Part shown: one piece after another, positions 5,220 through 23,699 of the stretch
Layout of the letters: the number at the start of each line of letters is the position of its first letter
Position numbering within the stretch: position 1 is the first letter of the stretch
Assembly: GCF_009906315.1 (NCBI RefSeq)
Contig: NZ_JAAALL010000006.1
Coordinates: 1-38,595 of the forward strand
Direction: 5' to 3'
DNA length: 38,595 nucleotides
DNA from: Kineococcus vitellinus
GTDB taxonomy: Bacteria; Actinomycetota; Actinomycetes; Actinomycetales; Kineococcaceae
Notes under the pieces: model-generated
What the model was told of the DNA's origin: nothing
Seen by the model: the letters and a program-made list of their open reading frames with translations, nothing else
Databases searched by the model: none
Made by a program: the position numbers and the translations under genes

Positions 5220-6341
5220 TCACGGTGAGCCGTGAGCCGCTCGTGCGAGGACGTCCTCCACCGCTGCCACATGCTGCTCGTAAGGAAAGCGGTCGCGCGT
5301 CCAGGCCGCGTACTCCTCCTCGGAAGAGCGGTCCGGGCCGGTGGCGAGAACGTCCCGAAGAGCGGCCGCCAACGCTTCCGGGTCGCCGGACGGGACGAGG
5401 AAGCGGTCCAGAGGACCCGCCAGGATCTCCGGGACAGCTCCCACCTTCGAGGCGATCACACGTCGGCCCGACATGAGCGCCTCGAGGACGACTCGCCCGA
5501 AGGCCTCGGGCAGAAGTGAGGGGAAGAGGACCACGTCGCTGGCGTGGAGCACCGTGCTTACGTCCGACCTGGCTGGCAGCCACGTGCACCTGCCATCCTG
5601 ACGCAGCCGTTCGATCCGCTCGAGGAGTTCCGGGGGAGCGCCCATGCCGTCTCCCACGAGCAGCAGATGACCGTTCCCGGGGTCGAGTCGGAGCGACTCC
5701 CATGCCTCCAATGCCACCGACACGCCCTTGTCGACGGAGATGCGTCCGTAGTAGAGGGCGATGAAGGTGTCCCCCGGCACCCCCAGCGCCCGTCGTGCGG
5801 CAACGCGTTCCGCATCGCCTCCGAAGGGGTACTCCGCTTCAGGCACAGCGTTGGGGATCGTGAGCACCTGGTCGGCCGGCAGGCCCCTGCGCACCCACGT
5901 GCGTCGCATGAACTCCGAGACGGCGATGAAGGCGGCTGCGCCGCGACCAAGAAGGGACACCTTGTTGTAGTTGGGCATGTGGTGGAGGTGGCAGACGAGG
6001 GGCGCGCGGGCTGCGCGGGCGACGACCTGTCCCCAGACGATGTGCTCGAAGCGCTGGAGCCACAGGACGTCCGGTCGGTGCCCTGCGGCCCACAGTGCTG
6101 CCGGGGCCATGCGTGCCACGTCCTGCACCGCTGTGCGCGGTGTCAAGGAGAAGGACGTGGGGCCCTGGAGGCGGATGCCGGCACGTTCGTACTCGGTGCG
6201 CAGGGAGCCGTCGTGCTGGAAGAGCACTGTGACGCCGTGACCCCGCTGGACGAGGCTGCCACTTAGCTGGTAGGTGCACATCTCGATGCCTCCGGCGCGA
6301 TCGAGAGCCGTGGCGTGGGTGCAGATCTTCACGGTGGTCAT
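5220..6341 (-). CDS. Glycosyltransferase family 4 (GT-B), exopolysaccharide assembly
   Basis: Predicted retaining sugar-nucleotide-dependent transferase acting on a lipid-linked acceptor at the cytoplasmic face of the membrane. The 373 residues have the two-lobed GT-B layout: the N-terminal lobe has the GGIE loop near residue 17, the middle has a typical switch (LTIPNAVPEAEYPF), and the C-terminal lobe begins near YYGRISVDKG. The E-x7-E nucleotide-sugar motif is EAFGRVVLE, preceded by DVVLFPSLLP. It starts at ATG 6341, with AGGGGCAGG directly upstream. It is divergent from the PIG-L gene across a 161-bp spacer and ends 123 bp from dnaE, tail to tail. Donor and linkage cannot be read from sequence. 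Confidence 0.88.
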   Translation of the reverse strand: MTTVKICTHATALDRAGGIEMCTYQLSGSLVQRGHGVTVLFQHDGSLRTEYERAGIRLQGPTSFSLTPRTAVQDVARMAPAALWAAGHRPDVLWLQRFEHIVWGQVVARAARAPLVCHLHHMPNYNKVSLLGRGAAAFIAVSEFMRRTWVRRGLPADQVLTIPNAVPEAEYPFGGDAERVAARRALGVPGDTFIALYYGRISVDKGVSVALEAWESLRLDPGNGHLLLVGDGMGAPPELLERIERLRQDGRCTWLPARSDVSTVLHASDVVLFPSLLPEAFGRVVLEALMSGRRVIASKVGAVPEILAGPLDRFLVPSGDPEALAAALRDVLATGPDRSSEEEYAAWTRDRFPYEQHVAAVEDVLARAAHGSP

Positions 6342-6502: not shown

Positions 6503-7417
6503 GTGACGCGTCACCGAACTCCGGTGGCCTGGCGACCGTGGGTGCTGGTCGGCGCCGTCCTCATTGTCGTCCTGTTGATGTACTTGTTCCTCCGTACCGG
6601 CTCCGGAGGGAGCGTTGCCTGCCGCGGGCCCGTGCACTTGAGCTTCGTCGCGCACCCGGACGACGACCTCTTCTTCCAGACACCGGACATCCTCGACGAC
6701 ATCCGAGCGGGAATCTGTCACCGGACGGTCTACGTCACCAGCGGTGATTACGCCGCGGGCCCTGAGTACTGGGGATCGCGCGAGGCCGGTGTGCAGGCGG
6801 CCTACGCGCACATGGCCGGACGAGCCGACCGGTGGACGGCGTCCCCGCAAGTGATCTCCGACCACCCTGTGACCGTCTGGGAGCTCGCTGGGCGGCCAGA
6901 GGTCTCCGTGGTCTTCCTGAGGATCCCCGACGGCGGTCTCGAGGGAGGTGGGAGCGAGCGATACGGTGGTGTCAGCTTGCAGAAGCTGTACGACGGCCGG
7001 ATCAGCTCCATCTCCACGGTCGACGGCTTGGCGGAGTACACCGCTGACGACCTGGTCGAGCTCATCGGTGGCATTGCGAGTGCTCAATCGACCGAGGTCA
7101 TCAGGACGCACGACGTCCAGGGGCGGTTTGGTGACGGGGACCACAGTGATCATCACGCGGTGGCCCGCTTCGTCGCTGCTGCGCACCAGCAGTACGACAT
7201 GCGCAGTCGGTTGATCAGCTACAAGGGGTACCCGGTCGCCGAGCTCCCGCCGAACGTTGCAGGTGAGGATCTTCAGCGCAAAGTGGATGCCTACCTCACG
7301 TACGCCCCTCACGATCCGGAGGTGCCTGATTCGCAAGACGCCCTGCGGGACCAGCCCGAGGGCGCTTGGCTCCAACGACAGTACGCGCAAGAGATCACAG
7401 GTGGCGATCTGTCCTAG
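6503..7417 (+). CDS. Membrane-anchored PIG-L/LmbE family deacetylase
   Basis: Zinc-dependent N-deacetylase fold, known from GlcNAc-PI and mycothiol-pathway deacetylases. Zinc-site motifs are clear: AHPDDD with His51, Asp53 and Asp54, and the distal GDHSDHHAV with His217/His218. An N-terminal hydrophobic segment of about 20 residues (VLVGAVLIVVLLMYLFL) after a short basic stretch predicts a single membrane anchor with the catalytic domain outside the cell, unlike the cytoplasmic MshB type. With GTs and GH16 enzymes around it, removal of N-acetyl groups from the exported polymer is a reasonable inference. GTG 6503 is preferred over TTG 6437: the TATGAT at 6443-6448 lies between them and codon use upstream is not coding-like. 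The stop abuts the left end of the IS remnant. Confidence 0.82.
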   Translation: MTRHRTPVAWRPWVLVGAVLIVVLLMYLFLRTGSGGSVACRGPVHLSFVAHPDDDLFFQTPDILDDIRAGICHRTVYVTSGDYAAGPEYWGSREAGVQAAYAHMAGRADRWTASPQVISDHPVTVWELAGRPEVSVVFLRIPDGGLEGGGSERYGGVSLQKLYDGRISSISTVDGLAEYTADDLVELIGGIASAQSTEVIRTHDVQGRFGDGDHSDHHAVARFVAAAHQQYDMRSRLISYKGYPVAELPPNVAGEDLQRKVDAYLTYAPHDPEVPDSQDALRDQPEGAWLQRQYAQEITGGDLS

Positions 7418-8876
7418 TAGTGCTCTGTTGGGTCTTGTCAAGGATGGTCACCGCGTGGTGCCTTGCGGCGGTGACTCTCGAAGAGCTGGCGGCCGCGCGC
7501 GAGCAGCTGCAGCACTTCGCCGAGAACGTCTTCGCGCCCTTGGTCCGGACCGATCAGCGGGCCAAGGGGCAGACCTACCTGCGCGGGCTGCTGCTGAACG
7601 GGGCGCGCAAGGCGATGCAACCGATGCTGAACGGCTCGGCGTGGATCACCTGGGGCTGCAGCGGTTCGTCTCCTCCTACACGTGGGACGTGGCCGCGGTG
7701 CGCTGCCTGATCGCCGCCAAGGCGGTGGAAGTCATCGATCCGGTGGCGTGGGTGATCGATGACACCGGTTTCCCTAAGAACGGCAAATCCTCACCCGGGG
7801 TGGCGCGGCACTACGCCCCCGCGAACGGGAGGTACCCCCACGGAACGCTGGACAAGGTCGACAACTGCCAGATCGGCGTCAGCGTACGCCGCCACCGACA
7901 CTGCCTCCTGCCCGCTGGACTGGCGGCTGTTCCTGCCGGCCAGCTGGGACGCGACGGCACTCCAAGCCGATGCCGACACTGCTTCGGACCCCGCCTCGGC
8001 AGCCACCGCGTTGCAGGCTGTCCGGTTGCGCCGCACGTGCGCCGGCATCCCCGATGCACTGTGCCACGAGCCGAAGTGGCGCCTGGCCCTGGACATGCTC
8101 GATGAGGTCGCCGGCTGGGGCTTGACGCTACCTATGATCATCGCCGACCCCGAATACGGCAACAACGCCCACTTTCGCGGTGCTCTTGACGAGCGGAACC
8201 TGTTCTGGATCGTGCAGGTCGAGTCCGACCTGACCGCCACCCCGTTGATGCCGTTCCCGAGCTGCGCGAGTACGCCGGCGCCGACCCGCGCGGCAAGCCG
8301 CGCTACCGTGACGCGCCGATCAACTTGCGCCAGCGCGCCTTGGCCGCTGGGACGGGCGCGGCAAGACATCTCACCTGGCGGACTGGTTCCCGAGACCAAC
8401 TCACCTCACGGTTCCTCTAGATCCGCATCCGCCCGGCGGGCCGCAAGTACACCGCACGGCTGGCCGAGGACGGTTCTCTGCCCGAGCAGTGGCTGACGGC
8501 GAACTGGCCCGAGGATGCGGTCGAGCCGGTGAGGTACTGGTTGTCCAACCTACCCGCTGACACGCCACTGGCCGACCTGGTTCGGCGGGGAAAGTTGCGC
8601 TGGCGCATCGAGCATGACTACCGCGAACTCAAGACCGCCCTGAGATTGGACCACTTCGAAGGCCGCAGCTTCACCGGCTGGCACCGCCACGTCACTCTCG
8701 TCACCGCCGTTCACCTGTTCTGCGCCCTGTTGCGCGCCGGTTCGAAAGCCCGTGGCGCAGCCTGAGCACCTATGCCGTGCTGTTCCTGCAAATGCTGGCC
8801 ACTTGGATCGGCATCTGCAGCGTCTGTGGACAGCGTGCCCGGGACCGACCCTTGGTGCCGACCTAACGAAGTACGA
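7418..8876 (+). mobile_element. Decayed IS701-like insertion sequence with tentative imperfect terminal repeats
   Basis: A degenerate IS701-type transposase fills the interval. Candidate ends are 7418-7434 (TAGTGCTCTGTTGGGTC) and the complement of 8860-8876, which match at 12 of 17 positions, most differences being transitions. The right end overlaps the transposase TAA at 8864-8866, as in many compact insertion sequences. The left end touches the PIG-L stop codon. No target-site duplication could be confirmed. The ends are less certain than the transposase assignment. Confidence 0.5.
7444..8866 (+). pseudogene. IS701-family transposase, inactivated by frameshifts and a stop
   Basis: Recognisable DDE transposase of the IS701 type. 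The diagnostic block WVIDDTGFPKNGKSSPGVARHY is present, as are CQIGVSV, IIADPEYGNN, WRIEHDYRELKTALRLDHFEGRS and the C-terminal ATWIGICSVCGQR with a CxxC pair. The coding frame changes several times: frame 1 to about 7640, frame 3 to about 7880, frame 1 to about 8250, frame 3 to about 8755, and frame 2 to the TAA at 8864-8866. An in-frame TAG at 8418-8420 interrupts the third-frame section. At least four frameshifts plus one stop make it inactive. It marks an old insertion between the deacetylase and the first GH16 gene. Confidence 0.88.
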
Positions 8877-8996
8877 CTGTGCGTGACGGACGACGCGGTG
8901 CTCCTCTCCACGAGTCCGACCGTCGAGCCGCGGCTGAGCGTCGCCTGCCGGCGAGGTCGGCGGCTCCTCACAGTGCGCAGGAAGGGGTAGTGAAGT

Positions 8997-9026
8997 GTTA
9001 CATGTTTTTGGAGTGACGCTGGTCAC
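8997..9026 (+). promoter_or_regulatory. GTTACATGTT element followed by dyad GTGAC-GCTG-GTCAC
   Basis: GTTACATGTTTTTGG at 8997-9011 is followed by a perfect inverted repeat at 9013-9026, which also reads GTGA-N6-TCAC, the core of a CRP/GlxR-type operator. The same arrangement, with the dyad centre at the same distance, occurs at 18024-18053 (inside the repeat) and, with a different dyad, at 26585-26613. Likely a regulator site or promoter for the GH16 gene starting at 9122. Confidence 0.5.
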
Positions 9027-9051
9027 ATCTAGTCCGTTCGCTCAAGGGGTG

Positions 9052-9116
9052 CGGGACCGGGGTCGAGAGCTCGTGGGTCAGCACAGACCCGGTTCTGGTC
9101 ACGACTCAGGAGCTCC
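9052..9116 (+). promoter_or_regulatory. Structured leader with possible RBS sequestration
   Basis: The leader RNA can form a 10-bp stem between 9052-9061 and 9088-9097 (core ACCGGG/CCCGGT, flanked by G-C and G-U pairs). A competing hairpin GGGTC (9075-9079)/GACCC (9086-9090) excludes it. GAGCTC at 9067-9072 can pair with the GAGCTC at 9110-9115 that contains part of the AGGAG ribosome binding site. This is suggestive of a translational switch but not proven; the right copy of the repeat has the same leader. Confidence 0.3.
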
Positions 9117-9121
9117 CTTAC

Positions 9122-10222
9122 ATGCGAACCCCTTGGAAGACCGCGCTCTCCTTGCTGTGCGCCGGCGGCATCCTCGCCGGCGGTGCCACCCCCGCCTCGG
9201 CGGCGACCACGTTCAGTGCCACCAGTTCGGTCACCGTCAGCGGGAGCACGGCCACGGCGAGCACGACCATCAAGGCCTCGACGGACACGACCGCGGAGTA
9301 CGCCGGCATCTGCGCGCGTGATTCCAGCGGCCGCAACGTCGACTTCCCCGCGAAGCAGAACATCCGGTTGACGACGGCCGGAACGAAGATCACCGCGAGT
9401 CGGAGCTTGTCGGTGGGTAGCTACACCTACTTCGCCTGCGCGCGCATCGCCGGTCAGTGGCAGAACATCGGCAGCGTGAAGTCCTTCTCGGTCAGCGCCC
9501 AGAGCACCTCCACCACCCCCACGACCTCTACCCTCTCGGCGTCGAGCATGCCGTCCGGGACACTTGCCGGCTGGCAGCAGGTGTGGGCTGAGGACTTCAC
9601 GAGGGATGCGCCGACTGGATCCTTCCGCGCCGCCTACCCGAGCATCGGCGACTACGGTGACGGGAGCCCCGACACCTCCCGCAACGGCTGCTACAACAAC
9701 GGCGCGAACGTCTCCGCCCACGACGGTATGGCGGACATCCACCTCCGTACGGTGGATGGCTGTCCCTCCGGCGGCGTCCTCGTGGCGAACAACTGGAAGG
9801 CGCAGACCTACGGTCGCTACTCCATCCGCTACCGCGCGGACGCGGCCACCGGTTACGGCGCGGCATTCCTCTTGTGGCCTGCTTCAGACAACTGGACGGA
9901 GGGAGAGATCGACTTCCCGGAGAGCTCTTTCACGCAGAAGCAGTACATGGCCGTGTTCCAGCCGGGAGCGCCCGGCGTCGTCGCGTACAAGAACTCCACG
10001 AACGCGTCGTGGCAGGATTGGCACACGGCCACCATGGAGTGGACTCCCGGCCTGATCGTGTTCTTGATCGACGGCGCCGAGGTTGGCCGTACCACCAAGG
10101 GAGTTCCCACGACTCCGTTCAAGTGGATCCTCCAAGCGGCCACCGACGGGGCGAGCAAGCCTGCGCCGTCGGTACAGGGGCACCTCCTCATCGACTGGAT
10201 GACCTACTCCCGGCGCGCCTGA
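9122..10222 (+). CDS. Secreted GH16-family glycoside hydrolase A, module-swapped N-terminus
   Basis: Exported endo-beta-glycanase of family GH16, 366 residues. A Sec signal peptide (KTALSLLCAGGILAGG, cleavage after ASA near residue 27) precedes a beta-rich module of about 100 residues with the conserved phrase YAGICARDSSGRNVDFP. A Ser/Thr/Pro linker (about 126-150) leads to the catalytic domain. The E-x-D-x-x-E motif is intact (EIDFPE): Glu262 is the expected nucleophile, Asp264 the helper and Glu267 the acid/base. The first 134 codons are identical to the gene at 18149, while the catalytic halves are unrelated beyond family level. ATG 9122 follows AGGAG at 9108-9112. It converges on the GH16 gene on the other strand, with 15 bp between stops. 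Likely cuts or trims the locally made polysaccharide; substrate unknown. Confidence 0.88.
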   Translation: MRTPWKTALSLLCAGGILAGGATPASAATTFSATSSVTVSGSTATASTTIKASTDTTAEYAGICARDSSGRNVDFPAKQNIRLTTAGTKITASRSLSVGSYTYFACARIAGQWQNIGSVKSFSVSAQSTSTTPTTSTLSASSMPSGTLAGWQQVWAEDFTRDAPTGSFRAAYPSIGDYGDGSPDTSRNGCYNNGANVSAHDGMADIHLRTVDGCPSGGVLVANNWKAQTYGRYSIRYRADAATGYGAAFLLWPASDNWTEGEIDFPESSFTQKQYMAVFQPGAPGVVAYKNSTNASWQDWHTATMEWTPGLIVFLIDGAEVGRTTKGVPTTPFKWILQAATDGASKPAPSVQGHLLIDWMTYSRRA

Positions 10223-10237
10223 ACCGGCGGCAGCATT

Positions 10238-11707
10238 TCAGCGTGGCACAGCGCCCTGCCACACCTCCACGGGTGAGACCACCATGGAGCGTGGAAGCGC
10301 CGTGGTGCTGCTGTCTTCCCAACCGTCGACGGCCACGTTGAGCACGAGCGCCTGCGGGCCGCTGAACGGCCAGGCCCAGCCCGCTGCGACGGCGTCCTCG
10401 GCGAGCACGGACCTGACCTCGACCCGATCGATGTAGAAGCGGACGACCGACTGGTCGAAGTAGACCCCGTAGCGGTGTGGCCGCGCGTCGACCGCCTCTT
10501 GCAGTTCCGCGGTGCCGCCGTCGATGCCCCAGCCGCTCTGGACGTGCTCGGTGGGATCGCGCACCGTGGACGTGTGGACCGCATTGCGGGCCGTCGTGGC
10601 TTCGGCGCCTCGTCCTTCGAAGACGTCGATCTCGCCACAGGCCGGCCAGCCAACCTCCGGGAAGTTCGCCCCGATCAGCCAGAACGCAGGCCACAGGCCG
10701 CTTCCTGTCGGGGCCCGGAGCGAGGCTTCGACGTAGGAGCCGCTCGGAACGCTCACCTTGCCAAGGGTGGACAGTCGGGCGCTGGTGAAGTCGCGCTCGA
10801 TCTCGTCCTCGCCCCGGAAGCGCTCGCGGCGGACTGTGATCACCAGGTTGCCGTTGCCGTCCACGGTGGCGTTGCGTTCGTTCGGCGTGTAGGTCTGCAG
10901 CTCACCGTTGCCCCAGCCGTGGCCGCCCACCTCGCGCGTCCACGCGCACGCCGCCACGGACGTCCCAGGTGCAGCGGTGAAGCCGATGCGAGTGCTTGCC
11001 GGTCGTGTCGTGCGTGTGGTCCCGGCGGCGGCGACCCGGTGGACGCTCGCGCCGGTGATCTGCCAGTCGATCGGGCCGTTCGGTGGGAGATTCACGTAAA
11101 AGCCGGTTCCCGGCTCACCGGGCGCCGTCGCCACGAAAGTACGCGTCAGCAGTCGCCACGTCGGGACGGGTCCGCTGGTGTACTGGCTGCTGATCGTGGG
11201 ACGGCTGCCGACGTTGGCGTCGGCCAGGAGGATGCCGATCGACTGCTCGTCCGAGCCCAGGTTCCTCACCCACAGCTCCATGCGGTAGGTATCCCCGATC
11301 CGGAAGAACCCCTGCGGTGACGCGAGTTGGCCGAGGGCGAACGCCCAGCGCCCTTGGGCGCCGGGGTGCCGGACCTGCAAGGCCGACGTGAACCCCGCGG
11401 GGCCGTCGGGGACGCCTACCCGGTTGAGCTCGATGGGTCCCGTCTCGGCGGCGGCCGACCACCCAGACGGATCGGAAGCGGCAGTCGCGCCGGCCACCGC
11501 CTCAGCGGTCGGCACGGAGCCGGCGGTGCCCGTCATCCGCTCCTCATCGGCTCGCGCCACGCTGTTCACCGCCGCGCAATCCGCAACCGCCTGCTCCTTG
11601 GGTGCGAGCGCCACGGTGAGCGCGAGCGCGAGCAGCGCAGCCAGTCCGGCGCACAGCGCTGCGAGACCCAGCCTGCGCGCCTTGATCCTCGGTGCGGGCA
11701 CGGTCAC
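10238..11707 (-). CDS. Secreted GH16-family hydrolase C (laminarinase-like) with N-terminal CBM-like domain
   Basis: 489 residues. The N-terminus has a basic stretch and one hydrophobic segment (LAALCAGLAALLALALTVAL), a signal peptide or anchor. About residues 65-215 resemble a carbohydrate-binding jelly-roll of the CBM4/9 type (WVRNLGSDEQSIGILL, WRLLTRTFVATA). The catalytic domain from about 235 has the laminarinase/beta-glucanase look (GHGWGNGELQTYT, SGLWPAFWLIG) and the E-x-D-x-x-E motif EIDVFE with Glu359, Asp361 and Glu364. Unlike the two other GH16 enzymes here, it lacks the repeated N-module. It is third in an apparent minus-strand operon, 66 bp after the GT14 gene, so synthesis and cleavage of the polymer would be co-expressed. 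Confidence 0.87.
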   Translation of the reverse strand: MTVPAPRIKARRLGLAALCAGLAALLALALTVALAPKEQAVADCAAVNSVARADEERMTGTAGSVPTAEAVAGATAASDPSGWSAAAETGPIELNRVGVPDGPAGFTSALQVRHPGAQGRWAFALGQLASPQGFFRIGDTYRMELWVRNLGSDEQSIGILLADANVGSRPTISSQYTSGPVPTWRLLTRTFVATAPGEPGTGFYVNLPPNGPIDWQITGASVHRVAAAGTTRTTRPASTRIGFTAAPGTSVAACAWTREVGGHGWGNGELQTYTPNERNATVDGNGNLVITVRRERFRGEDEIERDFTSARLSTLGKVSVPSGSYVEASLRAPTGSGLWPAFWLIGANFPEVGWPACGEIDVFEGRGAEATTARNAVHTSTVRDPTEHVQSGWGIDGGTAELQEAVDARPHRYGVYFDQSVVRFYIDRVEVRSVLAEDAVAAGWAWPFSGPQALVLNVAVDGWEDSSTTALPRSMVVSPVEVWQGAVPR

Positions 11708-11773
11708 CTCGTGCTCATCCGGAGCGGACCCGTCGCTCGGTGGCCCGGGTGCCGAGGCCGGGCGAAGGTGCGG

Positions 11774-12700
11774 TCATGCCCGCAGTTCGGCATCGATGCG
11801 ATCGATCAGACCACCCTCGGTCTCGCTGGAGAACTTGCGGGCGAACAGCGCCTGCGGCATCGGTCCTGGCTGCTGGAGCACGACGGGATCCGCGACGGGT
11901 CCGCGACGGGCGGCGGCGATGCGGTCGAAGTCGTCCACCCGCAGCCAGTCGGGGTGGTCGGGCCTGTCATCCGTCCACTGCTGGTACCAGGCGTGGCCGT
12001 GGCACAGCGGTGCGGCGTCCACTCCCGCAAGCGTGGGAGAGCTGAGCACCGATGCGGCGAAGCTCTCGTCGGGAACGAGGGTCCTGCGCCAGAACGCCAC
12101 GACATCGGGCCTGGTGTCCACGATCCTCAGGAGAAGCTCGGCGTGGTGGCGAGCGTAGATCTTCCACTGGGAGGAGGCGCGGAGGCGCAGCCCCTCGGGC
12201 ACCTGTCGACGACCCGGCCACCGCAGTGGGACGCCGGCGACGAAGACCACGTCGTCGCCGCGGAGCACGAAGCGGCGGGTGAAGCGCCAGGTACCCCCGT
12301 CCTGGTGCCGGGGGGTGTTCCACGGCGTGAAGGGGATCGGCACGCTCATCAGGTACGACCTCCCCGCCCACGCCGTGAGCTGACGGTGCAGCTCCGCTCC
12401 GCTGACGAGGGGGTAGCACGCACCGGAGAGCACGGCGATGTGCTCGGCAGCCGACTGGCGGAGCACCGCGCGCAGGGCGTCCAGTTCGACCTGAACGAGG
12501 GACCAGCTCGCCAGCGTGGCCGAGCGCCGGGGCAGCGGAACCGCTCGACCGCGCCAGCCACGGACCATGTCCTCGGCCACGACCCTGCTGGCCTTGGCGT
12601 CGCAGTGCACGAAGACGGGGACGTCCTCCAGGGCGCCGATGAGGCGGTGCACCTGCCGGGGATCGCGGTGGGCGAGCACTACGGCGGCTAGGGACGTCAC
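11774..12700 (-). CDS. GT14-like (core-2/I-branching enzyme family) glycosyltransferase
   Basis: 308 residues resembling the bacterial branch of the core-2/I-branching beta-1,6-N-acetylglucosaminyltransferase and xylosyltransferase family. Visible hallmarks are the opening AAVVLAHRDPRQVHRLIGAL, the VFVHCDAKAS strand, SWSLVQVELDALRAVL, HIAVLSGACYPL, SSQWKIYARHHAELLL and the late LVPDESFAASVL, which carries the expected catalytic acidic residue. GTG 12700 overlaps the upstream membrane-protein stop by 4 bp (GTGA), so the two genes are coupled. Probably adds a side-chain sugar to the repeat unit. Family-level confidence is good; donor (GlcNAc, xylose or other) is unknown. Confidence 0.8.
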   Translation of the reverse strand: MTSLAAVVLAHRDPRQVHRLIGALEDVPVFVHCDAKASRVVAEDMVRGWRGRAVPLPRRSATLASWSLVQVELDALRAVLRQSAAEHIAVLSGACYPLVSGAELHRQLTAWAGRSYLMSVPIPFTPWNTPRHQDGGTWRFTRRFVLRGDDVVFVAGVPLRWPGRRQVPEGLRLRASSQWKIYARHHAELLLRIVDTRPDVVAFWRRTLVPDESFAASVLSSPTLAGVDAAPLCHGHAWYQQWTDDRPDHPDWLRVDDFDRIAAARRGPVADPVVLQQPGPMPQALFARKFSSETEGGLIDRIDAELRA

Positions 12701-14964
12701 GGGACCGCCACGCCGACGGCGGAGCCCGAGCGGTCCAGGCGGAAGAGGTAGGTGCCGTCCCGCGACACCTCGACGCTCCACTCCGGCAGCTCCATCAGAC
12801 CGTCCCGCAGGGCGGTGAACTGCTCTGGGCTCTGGACGCCGTAGGCCCAGGAGTAGTCCTGGACGGTCGGCGACCACACCGCAAAGACGTCCGTGGCTGT
12901 CGAGGGTAGTCGGCGCGTGAGCGCATCGGTGAGCGTGCGCGCCTGCCCCGCCACTTCCTCCGGCGGCAGCTGCCGGGGCGCGAGGTCGAGGTCCTGCTGC
13001 CCCAGCACCACTCCGTTCCAGCCCAGTTCGGGCGCCGAGGTGGGGAGGTTGCCGGTGCCCAGGAACACGACCACCGTCTGCGCGCCGCTGGCACCACGCT
13101 GCGTTTGCTGGAACTGCTGGAGGACTGCCAGATCCGACGGTCGGATGACGGTGAGCCGGTCGAGGCCGAAGGCCGCGACGAGGAAGGCGGTGGTGAGCAC
13201 TCCGACGACGGCCGTCACCAGGGCGGTGTGCCGGACCCTGGCCGACCACCTGCCGGCTGGTTGCACCAGGCTGGGTGCCGCGAGGACGGCCAGCCAGGGC
13301 ATCCCGAAGAGGACTGCGCGGAAGATGCCTTCCTGACCGTACGGGTTGGCGGCCACGAGGACGAGCCCGACAGCGGGTGCCGCCGCCAGGGACCAGGACT
13401 GCAGCGATCGCCGCGTGCGAACCAGGGTGCGCAGCGCCAGGAGACCGGTGACGCCCACGCACAACAGCAGCGCTACGACGGTCGCGGGCACCACGGGCAG
13501 ACGGGAGAGCTGCTCGGAACCCACGGTCTGGGGTGGGCGGAAGTTCTCCGGGTCGCCCAGGGCGCCGAAGGAGAGGAACGGGCTGAGCTCCGCGCGGTGG
13601 AGCAGCGCCCACAGCACGGCAGGGAGCAGTACCAGTCCCGGGACCCACCACGGCCGGATCTGGCGGAACACCACGAGGACGGCGAGGGTGCCGCCGATCA
13701 CGAAAGGGCTCAACTGGTGACTCACCGTGATCAAGCATCCGGCGAGGAGGATCAGGGGGAGGACCGGGAGGTCGCGGCCCCGGTGCAGCGCGAGTCCGTA
13801 GACGATCAGCCCCAGGACGAAGCCCACTGATTGCGGCGAGTAGTAGTCCGCGCCGAGGGGATCGGCCAGCACCGCCAGCAGCACGGCGGTCCAGATGGTC
13901 CGCGGGGACTTGAGGAGCTGGCCGGCGACCAGTCGCAGGGCGGCGACGCGCAGCCCGACCAGGACGAGCGGCCACGCGGTCGCCAGGTTCATCGGGTTGC
14001 GCAGGCTCGCGACCTCGGACCACCAGGCGTTCGCGGCGAAGAACCCTGGCCAGGCGTTGTAGACGGCGACGCTGGAACGCAGCTCGTGGTACAGCCGGAT
14101 CTGCTCGACGAGGTCGACGTGCTTGGCTGCCGACTGCGACCGCGGCCCGTCGTAGACGATCGCAGGTGTGGCGACAGTGACGATGGCGAGGAGCACCACG
14201 GGAACGGCGATGGACCACTGGTCCCGCGCCGCAGCGAGCACGAATCCCGCCAGGATCAGCGCCACGCCTGCGTACCAGGCGGGTCCGATGTCCGCGGGGA
14301 AGCCCCAGAAGGGCGGTGTGCTCGTGCCGCGGTGCGCAGCCGCGGCGGCGAGGCAGAGCAGCGTCCCGGCGGCCGCCAGCGCGACGGGCAGCTGCGCTTT
14401 GCTGGCCAGGTGGGAGCGCAACGGCCGGGGGATGGCGGAGTGCCTGGGCGGGGAGGTGCCCGCGCGCGAGAGCCGCAGATCGCTCCAGGCGCGGAGCAGC
14501 GCCAAGCAGTGGAGCACCCCGCTCACGGCGCCGACGAGCGCGAACGCCTCCAACGGGCGCCAGGTGCCGAGGGCCATCATGACCATCGGGACGATGGTCC
14601 CGACAGCGATCCCGGTGAGGCCGGCGAGGACCACGCGCACGTGCAGTCCGAGGTCCGCCCGGAGGTTCCACGGAGCGAACCCGATTCCCGCCACGCAGTA
14701 GGCGATGAGTGCGGGCACCCGGACGGCTTCGACCCCGGCCACCGCTGCCAGCACGCCGAGTGCGAGGGCGCCCGTCGCGAGGCCCGAGGTCACGAGACGG
14801 GCGGGGGCCGTGTCGGTGACCAGCTCGCGGTGCAACCTCTGGGGAGGGGCCTCGTCGAGGTGCGAGGCGCCGTCCGCGGTGTCGCCGGGACGGTCCACCT
14901 CGATGGGTCGCTCCTTCTCGATGGGTCGCTGCTTCACGACGTCCCGCTCATGCGGCTCCTGCAC
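12697..14964 (-). CDS. Large polytopic membrane protein, candidate polysaccharide polymerase or GT-C enzyme
   Basis: 755 residues with at least a dozen hydrophobic segments from about residue 60 to 600, then a soluble C-terminal part of about 140 residues. The first 55 residues are charged and contain a tandem peptide (RPIEKE RPIEVD) caused by an 18-bp DNA duplication. No family signature is recognised with certainty. The architecture (many spans, a long extracytoplasmic loop with DGPRSQSAAKHVDLVEQI, and a soluble C-terminus) fits Wzy-like polymerases or GT-C transferases, and a polymerase is the missing function next to the flippase. Start GTG 14964 has GAGAGGAT further upstream than ideal, so an inner GTG at residue 10 is possible. 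First gene of the minus-strand operon. Confidence 0.7.
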   Translation of the reverse strand: MQEPHERDVVKQRPIEKERPIEVDRPGDTADGASHLDEAPPQRLHRELVTDTAPARLVTSGLATGALALGVLAAVAGVEAVRVPALIAYCVAGIGFAPWNLRADLGLHVRVVLAGLTGIAVGTIVPMVMMALGTWRPLEAFALVGAVSGVLHCLALLRAWSDLRLSRAGTSPPRHSAIPRPLRSHLASKAQLPVALAAAGTLLCLAAAAAHRGTSTPPFWGFPADIGPAWYAGVALILAGFVLAAARDQWSIAVPVVLLAIVTVATPAIVYDGPRSQSAAKHVDLVEQIRLYHELRSSVAVYNAWPGFFAANAWWSEVASLRNPMNLATAWPLVLVGLRVAALRLVAGQLLKSPRTIWTAVLLAVLADPLGADYYSPQSVGFVLGLIVYGLALHRGRDLPVLPLILLAGCLITVSHQLSPFVIGGTLAVLVVFRQIRPWWVPGLVLLPAVLWALLHRAELSPFLSFGALGDPENFRPPQTVGSEQLSRLPVVPATVVALLLCVGVTGLLALRTLVRTRRSLQSWSLAAAPAVGLVLVAANPYGQEGIFRAVLFGMPWLAVLAAPSLVQPAGRWSARVRHTALVTAVVGVLTTAFLVAAFGLDRLTVIRPSDLAVLQQFQQTQRGASGAQTVVVFLGTGNLPTSAPELGWNGVVLGQQDLDLAPRQLPPEEVAGQARTLTDALTRRLPSTATDVFAVWSPTVQDYSWAYGVQSPEQFTALRDGLMELPEWSVEVSRDGTYLFRLDRSGSAVGVAVP
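14899..14934. repeat. 18-bp tandem duplication within a coding region
   Basis: Two 18-bp units (14899-14916 and 14917-14934) differ at one base and encode the repeated hexapeptide RPIEKE/RPIEVD near the N-terminus of the 755-residue membrane protein. Confidence 0.9.
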
Positions 14965-15309
14965 GCGTGCTCATCGAGATCCTCTCGTGCATCCGGTCGG
15001 TGTCGGGTACCCGTCTGCGGACCTCCTGCGCGATCCGCCCCGCCCGCGACCATAGGGCCGCGGCGTGCGGGGCTCGTGCGGCACGGTGCTGGCGCCGGTG
15101 CACAGGACGCCTCGACCGCGGCCCTCACCGGGCCGCGTGCCGGATACCACGGGGAACGCTGCGGGCGCTGTGTCGCCTAGGGTCTAATGGTACTGGCGTC
15201 GGCGCGACCCGGTGGCGTGGTCCAAGGACAGTGAGGAAATCACCATTCGGAGTCACATGTTCACTGTTCGCAGCTTTTCGTCCTGTTTTGCGCGGCGAGG
15301 TCCACTCCG
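14965..15309. promoter_or_regulatory. Divergent promoter region between membrane-protein operon and flippase
   Basis: 345 bp without a credible gene. It is clearly AT-richer around 15175-15290. GTCACATGTT at 15252-15261 matches the GH16 leader element at 9 of 10 bases and points towards the flippase. An inverted repeat GTGA-N5-TCAC lies at 15231-15243, and GGAAATCACC at 15235-15244 recurs on the minus strand at 23388-23397, upstream of the GT2 operon. No convincing complete -35/-10 pair was found. Confidence 0.5.
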
Positions 15310-16956
15310 GTGGTGAGGGACGGAGACTCCACCCGGATCGGTGACGCGCGCAGAGCTTCCATGGGCCTGTCGACGGACCAGGGACCGGCCCAGGAGGGTT
15401 GTCCTGACCGGAGGGCGGACGCCGCGGTCGGTGGGAGCGCAGGATCCGGTTTGTTCGGTCGCGGGCTGCTGTACGTCTCCGCCGCCGCGGCGCAGATGGT
15501 GAGCAGCGCCGTCGTGTCACCGGTCCTGGCTCACGGCATGGGGGATCCGGCGGAGTTCGGCAAGCTGGCGTCCGCGATCGCCTTGCACCAGCTGCTGGTC
15601 GTGGTCGCCGCGGCCGGGCTCGACCAGGCGGTCGTGCTCCAGCGGGCTGAGGACGGGCACGAGCGGAACGCGGGTGCGGCCGCAGGCGCGGGCATCGTCC
15701 TGGCGACCGCAGTGACGCTGCTGCTCGCCGTCACGGCACGTTGGTGGGCCGGGCCAATGGGGTTCGAAGAGCCGTCGGCGCTCCTCACGGCCACGATCGT
15801 CTGGACCGTCCCCGCGGTGGCTGTGATGGTCCTCCTGGGCCTCTTGCTGGGTGGCGACCGCCTGCGCCCGTTCGCCGTCATCAGCCTCGTCGCGGCGCTG
15901 GGGGGCCAGCTCCTCGGCCTCGTGCTGCTCTTCGGCCTCCGGCCGCTGGCCGCCTCCTACCTCTGGGGGGTCGTCGCCGCGGATGCGCTCGCTGCCGCGA
16001 TCGCCCTCGTCCTCACGCGTCGCGCGTGGTTCAGAATGCCCCGGCCAGTGGTGGTCCGCAGGTCGCTGGCCCTGGGGCTGCCGCTGCTGCTCGGCTCCCT
16101 GTCCACCTTCGTGCTCAACGCCGGGGACCGCATCGTCATCCAGCGGGTCGCGGGTGCTGCTGAGGTGGGTCGGTACCAGGTCGCCTACACCTTGGGGGGT
16201 GTGGTCGTGCAGCTGGTCGTGATGCTGGGCAGCTCGTGGTTGCCGCGCTTCGCAGAGGTTCGTGAGGAGGCTCAGCGGTGGCGGCTCATCGGCCACTCGC
16301 GGGACGGCCTCTACCTCTTGCTGGCCCCCGTCGTGCTCGGCCTGACCCTGGCTGCTCCTGTCCTGCTGAGGATTTTCGCCCCGGAGAGCTTCGGGCGCGA
16401 GACGCTGCTGGTGGTGGTTCTCATGGTGCTCGTGTCGGCCTACCCCGTGGCAGCGTCAGGCGCTAGCGGCAGGATGCTGCTCACCGCCCGCAGGGCCAGG
16501 CCGATCGGCGTCATCGCCCTCGTCGCGGCGGTGGTGAACATCGGCCTGAACTTCCTGCTCGTCCCCCTCGCCGGCATCGCCGGTGCTGCAGCTGCCACGG
16601 TCCTGGCCTTGATGGTGCAGGCCGTGCTGCAGCGCCTCGCGGTCGTCACAGGAGGACACGGGTCACCGTGGCCGCGGTCCTCGATCGTGCTGCTGGTGCT
16701 GTCGACCGCAGTGGTCCTCGTCGCGTGGCTCTCCACCTTCCTCCCGCAGTCCGCGCTCTTCAACGGCGCGCGGTTCGCCCTCGGCTTGGTCTGCCTGCCG
16801 TGGCTGTGGTTCTACTGGCGTCGCGTCGTGCGGTCGGGTTCAGCGGCCCCGCCGCCGCGGGGAGCCGTGGTCGACGCCAGCCGCGCACGGCACCGCTCGG
16901 TGCGCCCATCGCGGCGATCACTCCGCAGGGATCCCTCCCGGCGAGACCCCTGTTGA
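15310..16956 (+). CDS. Wzx-type polysaccharide flippase (MOP superfamily)
   Basis: Predicted to translocate undecaprenyl-linked repeat units across the membrane. 548 residues with roughly 12-14 hydrophobic spans between about 45 and 500 in the Wzx/MATE pattern. The start of span 1 (GRGLLYVSAAAAQMVSSAV) and the internal block NAGDRIVIQRVAGAAEVGRYQVAYTL are typical of polysaccharide exporters. The basic C-terminal tail of about 45 residues (RSVRPSRRSLRRDPSRRDPC) is cytoplasmic. GTG 15310 is used here, but ATG 15361 (18 codons shorter) is equally plausible as neither has a strong ribosome binding site. Divergent from the membrane-protein/GT14/GH16 operon. Confidence 0.88.
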   Translation: MVRDGDSTRIGDARRASMGLSTDQGPAQEGCPDRRADAAVGGSAGSGLFGRGLLYVSAAAAQMVSSAVVSPVLAHGMGDPAEFGKLASAIALHQLLVVVAAAGLDQAVVLQRAEDGHERNAGAAAGAGIVLATAVTLLLAVTARWWAGPMGFEEPSALLTATIVWTVPAVAVMVLLGLLLGGDRLRPFAVISLVAALGGQLLGLVLLFGLRPLAASYLWGVVAADALAAAIALVLTRRAWFRMPRPVVVRRSLALGLPLLLGSLSTFVLNAGDRIVIQRVAGAAEVGRYQVAYTLGGVVVQLVVMLGSSWLPRFAEVREEAQRWRLIGHSRDGLYLLLAPVVLGLTLAAPVLLRIFAPESFGRETLLVVVLMVLVSAYPVAASGASGRMLLTARRARPIGVIALVAAVVNIGLNFLLVPLAGIAGAAAATVLALMVQAVLQRLAVVTGGHGSPWPRSSIVLLVLSTAVVLVAWLSTFLPQSALFNGARFALGLVCLPWLWFYWRRVVRSGSAAPPPRGAVVDASRARHRSVRPSRRSLRRDPSRRDPC

Positions 16957-17142
16957 AAGGACTCGTTCGACGGTGGAGGTGTTGCGCGAGGCCCTACCCG
17001 TCGCAGCACGGTGCGGGCGCTGGGGCGCACGTGCGCCTCTGGATCGATCTGTGGGACGAGGCCCACGGTCGCGCCCTCGTGCCGGCGGTGAGGAGGGATG
17101 CTCCTCGAGTCGCCTGGCCACCGTCGTCAGCGGATCAGCGGT

Positions 17143-17706
17143 TCACGTCCCCGCGACGAGGTCCAACGGGCACTCCTGCGGAGCCTCGGTGTACCAAGGC
17201 TGCTTCGTGCACCACGACTGCAAGGCGTTCGCCAGTGAGCGCTTGACCGGTCGCAGGTGCACCACGTCGGCTTGTCCCCACTGGCTCGGGTTGGAGTAGC
17301 GGCACGCATCACTGCGCTGCGTGGAAGCGCCACGACGCTCCGCCGTGCGCACTTCGAGGGTCGGTCCAGCGGTGTAGTGGGTGCCTCTGACGACGGTTAC
17401 CCGCCCGTCGGCGACGGGGACGAGAGCTTCCTGGCCGTCAGGTGAGTCCCACGGCCCGACGTAGATCACGTACTCGACCGTAGCTACCTTCCGACTGCTG
17501 TCCGACGTCACCACCATGCCCAGGGGCGCGGTGGTCCCGTGCACGGTGGGCACGGCGTCGCATGTCAACGGCGGGCCGTACCGGCTCGCCACGCTGCGGA
17601 AGTCGAGCAGCGGATCCCCGCTCCTTCCGAGCGACTGCGCCGATGCCGGCGCTGCCGCAGCCAGGCTCACCACCAACGTCGTGGCCAGGGCGTGCGCGAC
17701 CTTCAT
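17143..17706 (-). CDS. Secreted protein of unknown function
   Basis: 187 residues, not recognised. A clear Sec signal peptide (MKVAHALATTLVVSLAAAA, cleavage after ASA) gives a mature protein of about 163 residues. It carries four cysteines (in LTCDAV, DACRYS, SWCTKQ and QECPLD), enough for two disulphides. The middle is beta-rich (VATVEYVIYVGPW, VPVADGRVTVVRGTHYT). ATG 17706 is chosen because the signal peptide begins there, although the frame stays open for another 89 codons of low-quality, arginine-rich sequence. It lies between the flippase and the second repeat-bearing GH16 gene, on the opposite strand to both. Context suggests a cell-surface or polymer-associated role, but no function is assigned. 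Confidence 0.7.
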   Translation of the reverse strand: MKVAHALATTLVVSLAAAAPASAQSLGRSGDPLLDFRSVASRYGPPLTCDAVPTVHGTTAPLGMVVTSDSSRKVATVEYVIYVGPWDSPDGQEALVPVADGRVTVVRGTHYTAGPTLEVRTAERRGASTQRSDACRYSNPSQWGQADVVHLRPVKRSLANALQSWCTKQPWYTEAPQECPLDLVAGT

Positions 17707-18015
17707 GCTGGACCCCCGGGAAGCTCTACCGAGACGGCGCCCTGCCGACCCGGGAGACGCTATCGGCCGTCGCGTCGCCGCGGGGGAGAATCCTGTGATC
17801 CACCGTCTCGCCACCGGACCGACCACGCTCGCAGCCGCCGTCGGCGGCACGCAGTGGTGCCGGGACGACGCGGGTGCACCCGTCGCTCGGCGCACCCGTC
17901 GCTCGGCGCGACCGCGCCGCTTTTGAGCGCAGGGTGAGTCGCAGCGGTGATCGTAACGCTCCGTAGTTCTCAATGGCCCGTTCGAGTGGTGTGCTTGGCA
18001 ATTACCACAACTCAG
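17707..18015. other. Intergenic region between the secreted protein and the right repeat
   Basis: About 310 bp without a convincing gene. Contains a 16-bp perfect tandem duplication (17876-17907), then an AT-richer stretch from 17930. GTTACGATCA on the minus strand at 17948-17957 is a weak relative of the GTYACA element and could serve the secreted-protein gene. Confidence 0.4.
17876..17907. repeat. Perfect 16-bp tandem duplication
   Basis: GCACCCGTCGCTCGGC occurs twice head to tail at 17876-17891 and 17892-17907, in non-coding DNA. Confidence 0.9.
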
Positions 18016-18550
18016 AGTGAAGTGTTACATGTTTTTGGAGTGACGCTGGTCACATCTAGTCCGTTCGCTCAAGGGGTGCGGGACCGGGGTCGAGAGCTCG
18101 TGGGTCAGCACAGACCCGGTTCTGGTCACGACTCAGGAGCTCCCTTACATGCGAACCCCTTGGAAGACCGCGCTCTCCTTGCTGTGCGCCGGCGGCATCC
18201 TCGCCGGCGGTGCCACCCCCGCCTCGGCGGCGACCACGTTCAGTGCCACCAGTTCGGTCACCGTCAGCGGGAGCACGGCCACGGCGAGCACGACCATCAA
18301 GGCCTCGACGGACACGACCGCGGAGTACGCCGGCATCTGCGCGCGTGATTCCAGCGGCCGCAACGTCGACTTCCCCGCGAAGCAGAACATCCGGTTGACG
18401 ACGGCCGGAACGAAGATCACCGCGAGTCGGAGCTTGTCGGTGGGTAGCTACACCTACTTCGCCTGCGCGCGCATCGCCGGTCAGTGGCAGAACATCGGCA
18501 GCGTGAAGTCCTTCTCGGTCAGCGCCCAGAGCACCTCCACCACCCCCACG
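18016..18550. repeat. Right copy of the 535-bp direct repeat
   Basis: Same sequence as 8989-9523 with no difference seen. It includes the GTTACATGTT element (18024-18033), the GTGAC/GTCAC dyad (18040-18053), the foldable leader and 134 codons. Upstream DNA here is ordinary intergenic sequence, while the left copy sits close to an IS remnant, which hints that the right copy is the ancestral position. Confidence 0.97.
18024..18053 (+). promoter_or_regulatory. GTTACATGTT element and GTGA-N6-TCAC dyad, right copy
   Basis: Identical to 8997-9026; drives or controls the GH16 gene starting at 18149, 125 bp downstream. Confidence 0.5.
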
Positions 18551-19428: not shown

Positions 19429-20643
19429 TCAGGCGGTGCGGCGAGCACGGGCGTACAGGAACGGTCCTGCCGCCATCCCGGCCAGTTCGCGCAGCACCAG
19501 GTTCCGGTGCAGAGACGCCGGGCCGGCGGCGGAGTCAGACGCGGATGGCACGGCCGCGAGTCGAGCGAGACCCTGGGGCAGGACGCGCATCAGCTGTCGC
19601 CTGGTCCCCGGATTCACTAGGTGCTTGACGTAGAAGGCGCTGAGCCCGGTGCCGTAGCTGAACATCTGCTGCTGCAACTCCTTCAACTCGGCGCGATGGT
19701 GGTGCCAGACGATGGCCGACGGTTCATGGGCGATCGAGTGCCCTGCAGCGAGGACGCGCACGAACGCATCCAGGTCCTCGCCTCCACGAGTGCACGCGCC
19801 CGCACCCAGCGCTTCGTCGAACCCGCCGAGTTCACGCAGGACGGAGGTTCGAAAGGCGAAGTTGGCGCCCGTGCCGAAGAGGCCAGCGGCGTAGGGGTAC
19901 ATGGAGCTGTCGTCGCGGTGATCCGTCAGGTTGAACAGTCGCGGAGGACGCACGTGCGCCCAGGAAACCCGTGCGTCGAAGTACGCCTCGACCGCCGTCT
20001 CGATCCCGGCGGTCGCCACGAGGCCGGTTACGCAGGCGACGTCCTTCCGTCGTTGGAACCCGAGAGCCACGCCTTCCAGCCACCGCTCGTCGACCCGCAC
20101 GTCGTCGTCCGTGTAGGCGATGACGTGACCACTGGCGGAGTGCATCGCTCGGTTGCGTGCGCGCGAGAGCCCTGGTCGGGGTTCGTGGACGTAACGCACC
20201 CGCTCGTCCTCCCGCTGCACGGACGCCACCAGTGCACGCGTCCGCCCGGACGTCGGTGCATTGTCCACCACCAGCAGTTCGGTGTTCGGGTAGTTCAACC
20301 GCCGCAGGTGCTGCAGGCAGCGCTCCAGGGACTCGGGGCGTTCGCGGGTGCAAACAGCGACGCTGATCCGCAGCGTGGCGGGGACGGGATCTGGTCGGTG
20401 GTCCCCGTCGTCCGCCCAAGCATGCCGTACTCGGTCGCGAGCCGGTGCCCCGAGCTGGGCGACGGCTTCCTCGAGCTTCAGCGGGCTGCCTACCGGGGCG
20501 GTGGCGTAGCCCAGCGGCTCTCCGCGGAGCTTCAGGAGCAGGCGCTGCGAGAAGTGCCGCGCCGGCGGTTCGGGCAGGGTCGAGGGTCGAGGGTCGAGCT
20601 CGACCTCCCCGCACCACACGGGCAGTTCCAGGACGTCAGCCAA
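19429..20643 (-). CDS. Glycosyltransferase family 2 (GT-A)
   Basis: 404 residues. An N-terminal extension of about 90 residues (VLELPVWCGEVELD, LLLKLRGEPLGYATAPV) is followed by the GT-A domain: ISVAVCTRERPESLERCLQHL, the nucleotide-binding strand TELLVVDNAP, LSRARNRAMHSASG and the metal-binding YTDDDVRVD. FGTGANFAFRTSVLRELGGFDEALGAG and GGEDLDAF complete the acceptor side. No membrane spans are evident, so it is probably cytoplasmic or peripheral. TTG 20643 is the only nearby start and overlaps the upstream gene by 8 bp. Last of three GT2 genes; the first in this operon shares the same two-part layout and the phrase HEPRPG, so the pair may be paralogues. Confidence 0.87.
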   Translation of the reverse strand: MADVLELPVWCGEVELDPRPSTLPEPPARHFSQRLLLKLRGEPLGYATAPVGSPLKLEEAVAQLGAPARDRVRHAWADDGDHRPDPVPATLRISVAVCTRERPESLERCLQHLRRLNYPNTELLVVDNAPTSGRTRALVASVQREDERVRYVHEPRPGLSRARNRAMHSASGHVIAYTDDDVRVDERWLEGVALGFQRRKDVACVTGLVATAGIETAVEAYFDARVSWAHVRPPRLFNLTDHRDDSSMYPYAAGLFGTGANFAFRTSVLRELGGFDEALGAGACTRGGEDLDAFVRVLAAGHSIAHEPSAIVWHHHRAELKELQQQMFSYGTGLSAFYVKHLVNPGTRRQLMRVLPQGLARLAAVPSASDSAAGPASLHRNLVLRELAGMAAGPFLYARARRTA

Positions 20644-21727
20644 CGCTGTGGCCCACCGTCACGACGGCGCCTCGGGGCGGCGGGCGCAGCCCGCGTGCGC
20701 GGCCGTACGCGTACCCGAACGCAGTGGTCCCCAGTCCCAGGACCACGGCAGCGGACTGCCGCGCAGCGGCGGTGTCGCCTCGGCGCAGGAGCGACGTCAG
20801 GCCACGCAGCACCGCGACAGGCAGAGTGCGAGTGGCGTAGACGCGCTCGGACTCGAGCGCGTCCTGGGTCCCCACGGTGGAGGCCACGACTGCCTTGGAG
20901 TAGCCCTCCCAGAAGCAGCGGCGGACGAAGTAGGCCAGCGTTCGGCGAGCAGCCGTCACCCGGTGGTGCACCACGGCCGAGGGTTCGTGGATGATCCTCG
21001 ACCCCGCTTCCTGCGAGCGGATCCTGATCGACAGCTCCGTCTCCTCGCACCCCACGGGGTGCTTCCCGACACGCCCGATCCCGCTGGTGAAGCCCTGGGC
21101 AGCCAACAGCGCGTGCCGACGAAAACCCATGGTGCAGCCGATGGGGTTCCGGACCTCAGCCCGCTGATGAGGCAGGCCCTCGTAGCTGCAACCCACGACC
21201 CACAAGAACGCCTCGGGGAACCACGAGGGTCGCCCGGGGGCGTCCCAGTCAGCGCTGGCCCAGCCGCTCACACCGACGACTGTGGAGTCCTGCATCGGTG
21301 CGCAACTGCGCTCCACCCATTGCTCGTCCGGACGGGCGTCGTCGTCCAGGAAGAGGACGACGTCGCTCCGGCAGGCGGCGATGCCGGTGTTCCGGGCGCC
21401 CGAGAGTCCGCGGTCCCCGGTGTTGGTGATGACCGTGGCCCGCTCCAGCACGTCTCGGGCCCGGCTCAGCAGGGCGGTGTTGTGGTCCACGACGATCACC
21501 ACCTCGTCGGGTTCGCGCGTCTGGCGCCACAGCGCTTCGTACCCGGCGATCAGGTCTGACCAGCGTTCCTCCGTGTAGGCGCAGATGACCACCGCGGCGG
21601 TGTCGGCGAGCGGTGGAGGCGTCGGACCCTGCTTCGCCACCTCGACGTGCCCGGATCCGCGGGTGGAACGGCTCACGAGCCCCTTCCGGGTCAGGGGGCC
21701 TGGAATGGACCGGGCTGGGTCGACCAC
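20636..21727 (-). CDS. Glycosyltransferase family 2 (GT-A), WcaA-like
   Basis: 363 residues with an inverting GT-A fold: AAVVICAYTEERWSDLIAGYEAL, EVVIVVDHN, LSGARNTGIAACRSDVVLFLDDDARPDEQWVE (DDD metal motif), IGCTMGFRRHALLAAQGF and GCEETELSIRI for the catalytic acidic region. The C-terminal 90 residues are basic with one weak hydrophobic stretch (AAVVLGLGTTAFGYAYG). GTG 21727 is 4 bp after the stop of the preceding GT2 gene; the end overlaps the next. It lacks the long N-terminal extension of its two neighbours, so it is a distinct subfamily. Probably adds one sugar of the repeat unit. Confidence 0.88.
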   Translation of the reverse strand: MVDPARSIPGPLTRKGLVSRSTRGSGHVEVAKQGPTPPPLADTAAVVICAYTEERWSDLIAGYEALWRQTREPDEVVIVVDHNTALLSRARDVLERATVITNTGDRGLSGARNTGIAACRSDVVLFLDDDARPDEQWVERSCAPMQDSTVVGVSGWASADWDAPGRPSWFPEAFLWVVGCSYEGLPHQRAEVRNPIGCTMGFRRHALLAAQGFTSGIGRVGKHPVGCEETELSIRIRSQEAGSRIIHEPSAVVHHRVTAARRTLAYFVRRCFWEGYSKAVVASTVGTQDALESERVYATRTLPVAVLRGLTSLLRRGDTAAARQSAAVVLGLGTTAFGYAYGRARGLRPPPRGAVVTVGHSVG

Positions 21728-21731
21728 TGGA

Positions 21732-23129: not shown

Positions 23130-23699
23130 GTGCAGCTCGCTCCCCCGTGGTCGTGCGTCGCGTCCCCTGCTCTGCCACGACAGTAGCGTCGTCCCCACGG
23201 TCTGCTCGTCCTTGTTCGGGAACGGTGCAGGAACGGCCCGCACCAGCAGCCTGGCCGTGCCGGTGGTGCGGGCCGACGCGGTCGGGTGTCGGGCGGGGGT
23301 GCGTTTCGCGACGCCCGGGTGGTGCGCGGGTCTGCGTGGGATCGGCATCCATAATTTGTGACTCTCTGGAGCAGAATCTTGACCCAAGGTGATTTCCGCC
23401 TGGTGCCACCGAAGAAGTGCAGATCGAGATCGCAGGGATCCCCCTCCCTTCCGCCTGTGTCTGCCCTATGCTCCCTCATGATCTTGGTGACGACGCTCCA
23501 CGTGCTCGAGCACAGCGAATCGGGGTGGTCCACGGACTGCGGTGGCTCACGTCGTCGCTGCGGTCCGCGGTGCGGCCGGGAAGGTCCGGCCCCGCCGTCG
23601 CATCCTCTCCTGCTTGCCGACCCGGTGCTACAGCCTCTTGTTCGACGCGCAGCCCACGGCGCCTGCCCCGGCTGACCTGAGTGAGGAGTCCCCGACCCC
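23130..23699. promoter_or_regulatory. Divergent spacer between GT2 operon and A-T-TE gene
   Basis: 570 bp with no credible gene. The AT-richest part is 23345-23400. On the minus strand, GTCACAAATT (complement of 23353-23362) is a 10-bp relative of the GH16 leader element and points to the GT2 operon. GGAAATCACC (complement of 23388-23397) repeats an element from the flippase promoter. GAGGAG at 23683-23688 is the ribosome binding site of the A-T-TE gene. No full promoter could be assigned for the plus strand. Confidence 0.5.

Follow-up and report, generated by a model that had tools for sequence, protein, structure and literature searches.

An identical 535-bp leader, signal peptide and module unit precedes two different GH16 domains in an exopolysaccharide-type locus of Kineococcus vitellinus

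The window, by which we mean the whole stretch of 38,595 nucleotides that was analyzed, is one entire contig (C665) of the 698-contig draft genome (4.86 Mb) of Kineococcus vitellinus. Its main features are listed in Table 1. Two genes coding for secreted proteins with a GH16 domain, of type T1 in gene 1 and type T2 in gene 2, lie about 9 kb apart on the plus strand. Judged by gene content, the locus is of the exopolysaccharide or capsule type, because a family 4 glycosyltransferase, a PIG-L deacetylase, a third GH16 enzyme, a flippase and three family 2 glycosyltransferases surround the two genes. The region between them also contains, on the minus strand, a large membrane protein without a Pfam match (12697-14964) and a small secreted protein whose family was not assigned (17143-17706). 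An NRPS-like single-module protein with AMP-binding, carrier and thioesterase domains is encoded within the same locus at 23700-26309.

Table 1. Features of the locus (positions in the window)
Feature	Position	Strand	Remarks
Glycosyltransferase gene, group 1 / family 4	5220..6341	-	locus context
Degenerate IS701-family element, broken transposase	7416..8878 (about)	+	probable 19-bp terminal repeats, 14/19 matching
Shared leader, copy 1 (upstream/regulatory region)	8989..9121	+	133 bp, 58% GC; identical to 18016-18148; AGGAG at 9108
Palindrome AGTGACGCTGGTCACA, CRP/GlxR-type candidate	9012-9027 (leader copy 1), 18039-18054 (leader copy 2)		pattern match
Gene 1, secreted module + GH16 type T1, 366 aa	9122..10222	+	PF00722 1.4e-11; PDB matches to 1,3-1,4-beta-glucanases
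Coding part of the unit, copy 1 (from signal peptide to linker start)	9122..9523	+	exact match, model, fold search
Third GH16 gene, between the copies	10238..11707	-	PF00722 8.2e-13; catalytic EIDVFE; different N-terminus, without the shared unit
Wzx-type polysaccharide flippase (Polysacc_synt)	15310..16956	+	Pfam
Shared leader, copy 2	18016..18148	+	identical to copy 1
Gene 2, secreted module + GH16 type T2, laminarinase-like, 378 aa	18149..19285	+	PF00722 1.2e-12; PDB 2vy0 endo-beta-1,3-glucanase 1.5e-16
Coding part of the unit, copy 2 (from signal peptide to linker start)	18149..18550	+	identical to copy 1
Three glycosyltransferase family 2 genes	19429..23387	-	locus context

Both reading frames are complete, with the module, the linker and the GH16 domain in frame, and both catalytic ExDx(x)E motifs are intact (EIDFPE at residues 262-267, 9905-9922, in gene 1; EIDIFE at residues 264-269, 18938-18955, in gene 2). 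The PF00722 scores were 44.6 and 48.1 bits against a curated cut-off of 22. The two catalytic domains are only distantly similar: a forced global alignment gave 28% identity over 215 residues, and BLASTP returned no real alignment between them. Both scored below the NCBIfam EglC equivalog cut-off (18.9 and 72.4 bits versus 700), and neither gene matched NCBIfam ExoK. Our best reading is that both genes encode predicted secreted GH16 endoglycanases, which would hydrolyze beta-glycan.

A base-by-base extension of the match showed that positions 8989-9523 and 18016-18550 (offset 9027) are identical over 535 bp with 0 differences, as the first-pass annotation had claimed, leader included. This length of exact match rules out chance similarity. 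The unit comprises 133 bp of non-coding DNA and 402 bp of coding sequence, and 83 of its 134 codons have fourfold-degenerate third positions; the absence of differences places the 95% upper bound on divergence at 0.56% per site. Both genes start with ATG (9122 and 18149) behind the same ribosome-binding-like AGGAG. In the 400 bp upstream of the unit and in the DNA downstream of it, matches were at chance level only. The exact match ends at codon 134, inside a Thr/Ser/Pro linker that precedes the catalytic domain, again as first described, and the edges of the unit coincide with functional borders, from the start of the leader to the linker. Since the window is one contig of a 698-contig draft, “identical” may mean near-identical copies that were collapsed by the assembler.

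The earlier description of the coding part also holds: an export signal and a beta-rich module precede two GH16 domains that differ. Inspection predicts a Sec-type signal peptide at residues 1-27, with cleavage between PASA and A; the module spans residues 28-126, where the linker begins that is shared up to residue 134. The structural model of the module (pLDDT 97.7) is a seven-stranded, FN3-like beta-sandwich. Among its closest folds in a PDB search was the RsgI4 sensor domain (Z 10.6; 85 residues superposed with an rmsd of 1.8), and others were sandwich domains of the GH2 type and RbmA, a biofilm protein; the search returned nothing prominent apart from FN3-like sandwiches. No Pfam family covers the module, and no Pfam CBM model scored above its cut-off in the 17 members of the module alignment.

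The shared leader contains the palindrome AGTGACGCTGGTCACA, which resembles the Escherichia coli CRP consensus TGTGA-N6-TCACA (PMC4117774), used here for comparison. The two copies of AGTGACGCTGGTCACA are the only exact WGTGA-N6-TCACW matches in the whole genome. From base composition, about 2.5 such sites would be expected by chance in the 4.86-Mb genome, but far fewer than 0.001 in a leader of 133 bp, which makes AGTGACGCTGGTCACA no more than suggestive as a candidate CRP/GlxR site. The leader contained no match to a sigma70-type promoter, and its predicted RNA structure was unremarkable (z -1.2). Leaders of the homologous genes in K. indalonis, K. rubinsiae and a further Kineococcus genome (G005) showed neither the palindrome nor visible similarity to it. 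We therefore rejected the view of the leader as regulatory DNA under purifying selection. Of the causes first proposed for the identity, a recent event is supported; the data give no sign of selection acting on the DNA as such, because the leader is not conserved among the Kineococcus homologues.

The search for further copies that the first-pass annotation had proposed was carried out in the genome and in relatives. The unit occurs twice in the 4.86 Mb and 698 contigs of its own genome and was absent at the DNA level from ten other Kineococcus genomes; the genome also contained no orphan third module and no orphan 5' end. Its ends carry no terminal repeats, and no recombinase belongs to it. 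The IS701-family element is present in a single copy in the genome, and terminal repeats matching at 14 of 19 positions were reached by 9 of 200 shuffles. Between the apparent end of this remnant and copy 1 lie 110 bp, and copy 2 has nothing similar beside it; on these grounds an IS-mediated origin of the unit was rejected.

We then compared the module and the two catalytic types with those of relatives. The module is rare, being found in its own genome and in one other among 396 sampled genomes of the phylum, and it gave no match in a plasmid collection, so that spread by plasmids was rejected. Within Kineococcus it is joined to a T1-type GH16 domain twice in K. rubinsiae and once in G005. 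Loci fetched with an alignment of the T1 domain also contained it in Nakamurella, Cryobacterium, Microbacteriaceae MAGs, Nocardioides and a Pseudonocardiales MAG, in some cases with two modules in tandem, and three g35 (Streptomyces-like) genomes carry it with a T2-like GH16 domain. In whole-genome searches made without use of the GH16 domain, GH16 followed the module in all confident matches (G005, K. rubinsiae (G009) twice, G236, G299 and G650); the match in K. indalonis (G003) is truncated in the linker by the end of its contig, and the one weak match, in G057, lies outside this set. Going by these domain orders, the module has an established place at the N-terminus of GH16 enzymes, and the architecture is old. 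A brand-new fusion never seen before was thus rejected: since fusions to both catalytic types occur elsewhere, neither is unprecedented, and the recent part is the DNA identity. The T1 + T2 pairing is likewise not peculiar to the present genome, since both types occur together in Arthrobacter/Pseudarthrobacter loci, and the one such locus that was checked (L115) also contains family 2 glycosyltransferase genes and a flippase. In K. indalonis, contig C86 of G003 (locus L012) terminates within the linker that follows the module, in a perfect inverted repeat; this is probably an assembly break that separates the module from its GH16 domain.

Taken together, we consider it likely that one recent copying event within the locus put the 535 bp in front of both catalytic domains. 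A single event of this kind explains the identity, the sharp ends and the uniqueness of the unit. It would have been a 5' partial gene duplication or a one-way gene conversion that carried the leader, the signal peptide, the FN3-like module and the start of the linker. The linker is rich in ACC/CCC repeats, which are a plausible site for the 3' crossover. The direction was probably from gene 1 to gene 2. The likely donor is T1, since this type is the habitual partner of the module in Kineococcus, where relatives of T1 are plentiful. None of the ten other Kineococcus genomes contains a close relative of T2, and its best relatives in the sampled genomes of the phylum and order show 34-40% identity, which makes gene 2 the likelier recipient. 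Against this direction, a constraint on the module tree that groups the module of the window with T2-linked modules was not rejected (p-AU 0.22). Among close relatives we found no intermediate state that would tell a de novo fusion in gene 2 from the replacement of an older module. Both enzymes would thereby share upstream control, export and an accessory module, and may cleave different linkages in a polysaccharide that belongs to the cell or is associated with it.

Two other explanations of the identity were weighed against this copying event. In the first, both genes are old module-GH16 paralogues that have long had the module, and ongoing gene conversion keeps their 5' ends identical. The T2-like fusions in the three g35 genomes show that gene 2 could earlier have had a module of its own. 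However, homogenization is absent from other loci in which two GH16 genes bear the module: the two modules of K. rubinsiae have no DNA similarity to each other, and loci L051 and L081 contain no exact repeat of at least 45 bp. Furthermore, no diverged flanks around the tract betray an older homology. Continuous homogenization is less likely for the first of these reasons, and we regard it as an unlikely alternative. In the second, the identity would be an artefact of assembly, either by collapse of similar, non-identical units or because gene 2 was wrongly joined to the unit. The repeat is longer than a short read, the draft is fragmented and the window fills an entire contig, and the K. indalonis draft of the same genus breaks exactly in such a linker. 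Against this, both junctions are in frame and give complete enzymes of types found elsewhere, no leftover 5' end or third module exists in the genome, and the given order is the only linear one that keeps everything when a single contig contains two direct repeats. An artefact of this kind therefore appears improbable.

Several known systems come close to the present case. In Caldicellulosiruptor bescii, a cluster of multimodular glycoside hydrolases carries identical GH5 and GH48 domains on different partners (PMC4892530). As in Kineococcus, identical modules stand on different catalytic domains in one polysaccharide-related cluster, which tells against the first-pass remark that no described system of such form was known to it. 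However, C. bescii repeats a catalytic domain, whereas Kineococcus repeats the leader, signal peptide and accessory module, and the C. bescii substrate is plant biomass, whereas the Kineococcus locus is one of exopolysaccharide biosynthesis. Partial or chimeric gene duplicates are a recognized class, reviewed mainly for eukaryotic genes (PMC3449122), in which a 5' flank and 5' coding part are duplicated and joined to a different 3' part. The present pair shares these properties and is recent, although it is bacterial and lies within one locus. Sinorhizobium meliloti ExoK and ExsH form a pair of endoglycanases acting on the exopolysaccharide of the cell itself (PMC4916376), and the Kineococcus enzymes would likewise be a pair serving one exopolysaccharide; unlike ExoK and ExsH, they have no NCBIfam ExoK match and share an identical 5' unit. 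Finally, two Curtobacterium loci with T1 GH16 genes (L086:8337-9211 and L107:8232-9206) contain identical tandem repeats of 431-453 bp of an accessory, probably carbohydrate-binding, module. Here, too, accessory modules next to or within a GH16 of the same type were recently and exactly duplicated, but the duplication is in tandem, involves neither leader nor signal peptide, and concerns a different module.

In light of these precedents, the case does not represent a new system. The first-pass annotation had proposed that the locus uses one cassette behind which new catalytic domains are placed. As a system, this is not supported, given the presence of two copies only, their absence from all ten other Kineococcus genomes, the lack of homogenization in other two-gene loci, and the age of the module-GH16 architecture, known with both GH16 types. 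It is very doubtful that exopolysaccharide loci of the present Kineococcus repeatedly copy the leader-signal-module unit in front of incoming glycanase domains; if they did, each new polysaccharide-cutting activity would immediately be expressed and targeted through one unit, which may be controlled by CRP. An antigenic-variation-type cassette system of gene conversion would have several silent or expressed copies, and only two exist here. A dedicated cassette-swapping or promoter-capture system, to which the coincidence of unit and functional boundaries and the nearby IS701 element might point, is scarcely credible for a two-copy unit that is missing in congeners, has neither terminal repeats nor a recombinase and starts 110 bp beyond the apparent end of the element.

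The case is thus best read as recent copying by a known route for building modular enzymes. It would be a very young and sharply bounded example of how a modular extracellular enzyme gains an upstream region, an export signal and an accessory domain in one step. In addition, it draws attention to an uncharacterized FN3-like module found together with GH16 glycanases in exopolysaccharide loci of actinobacteria.
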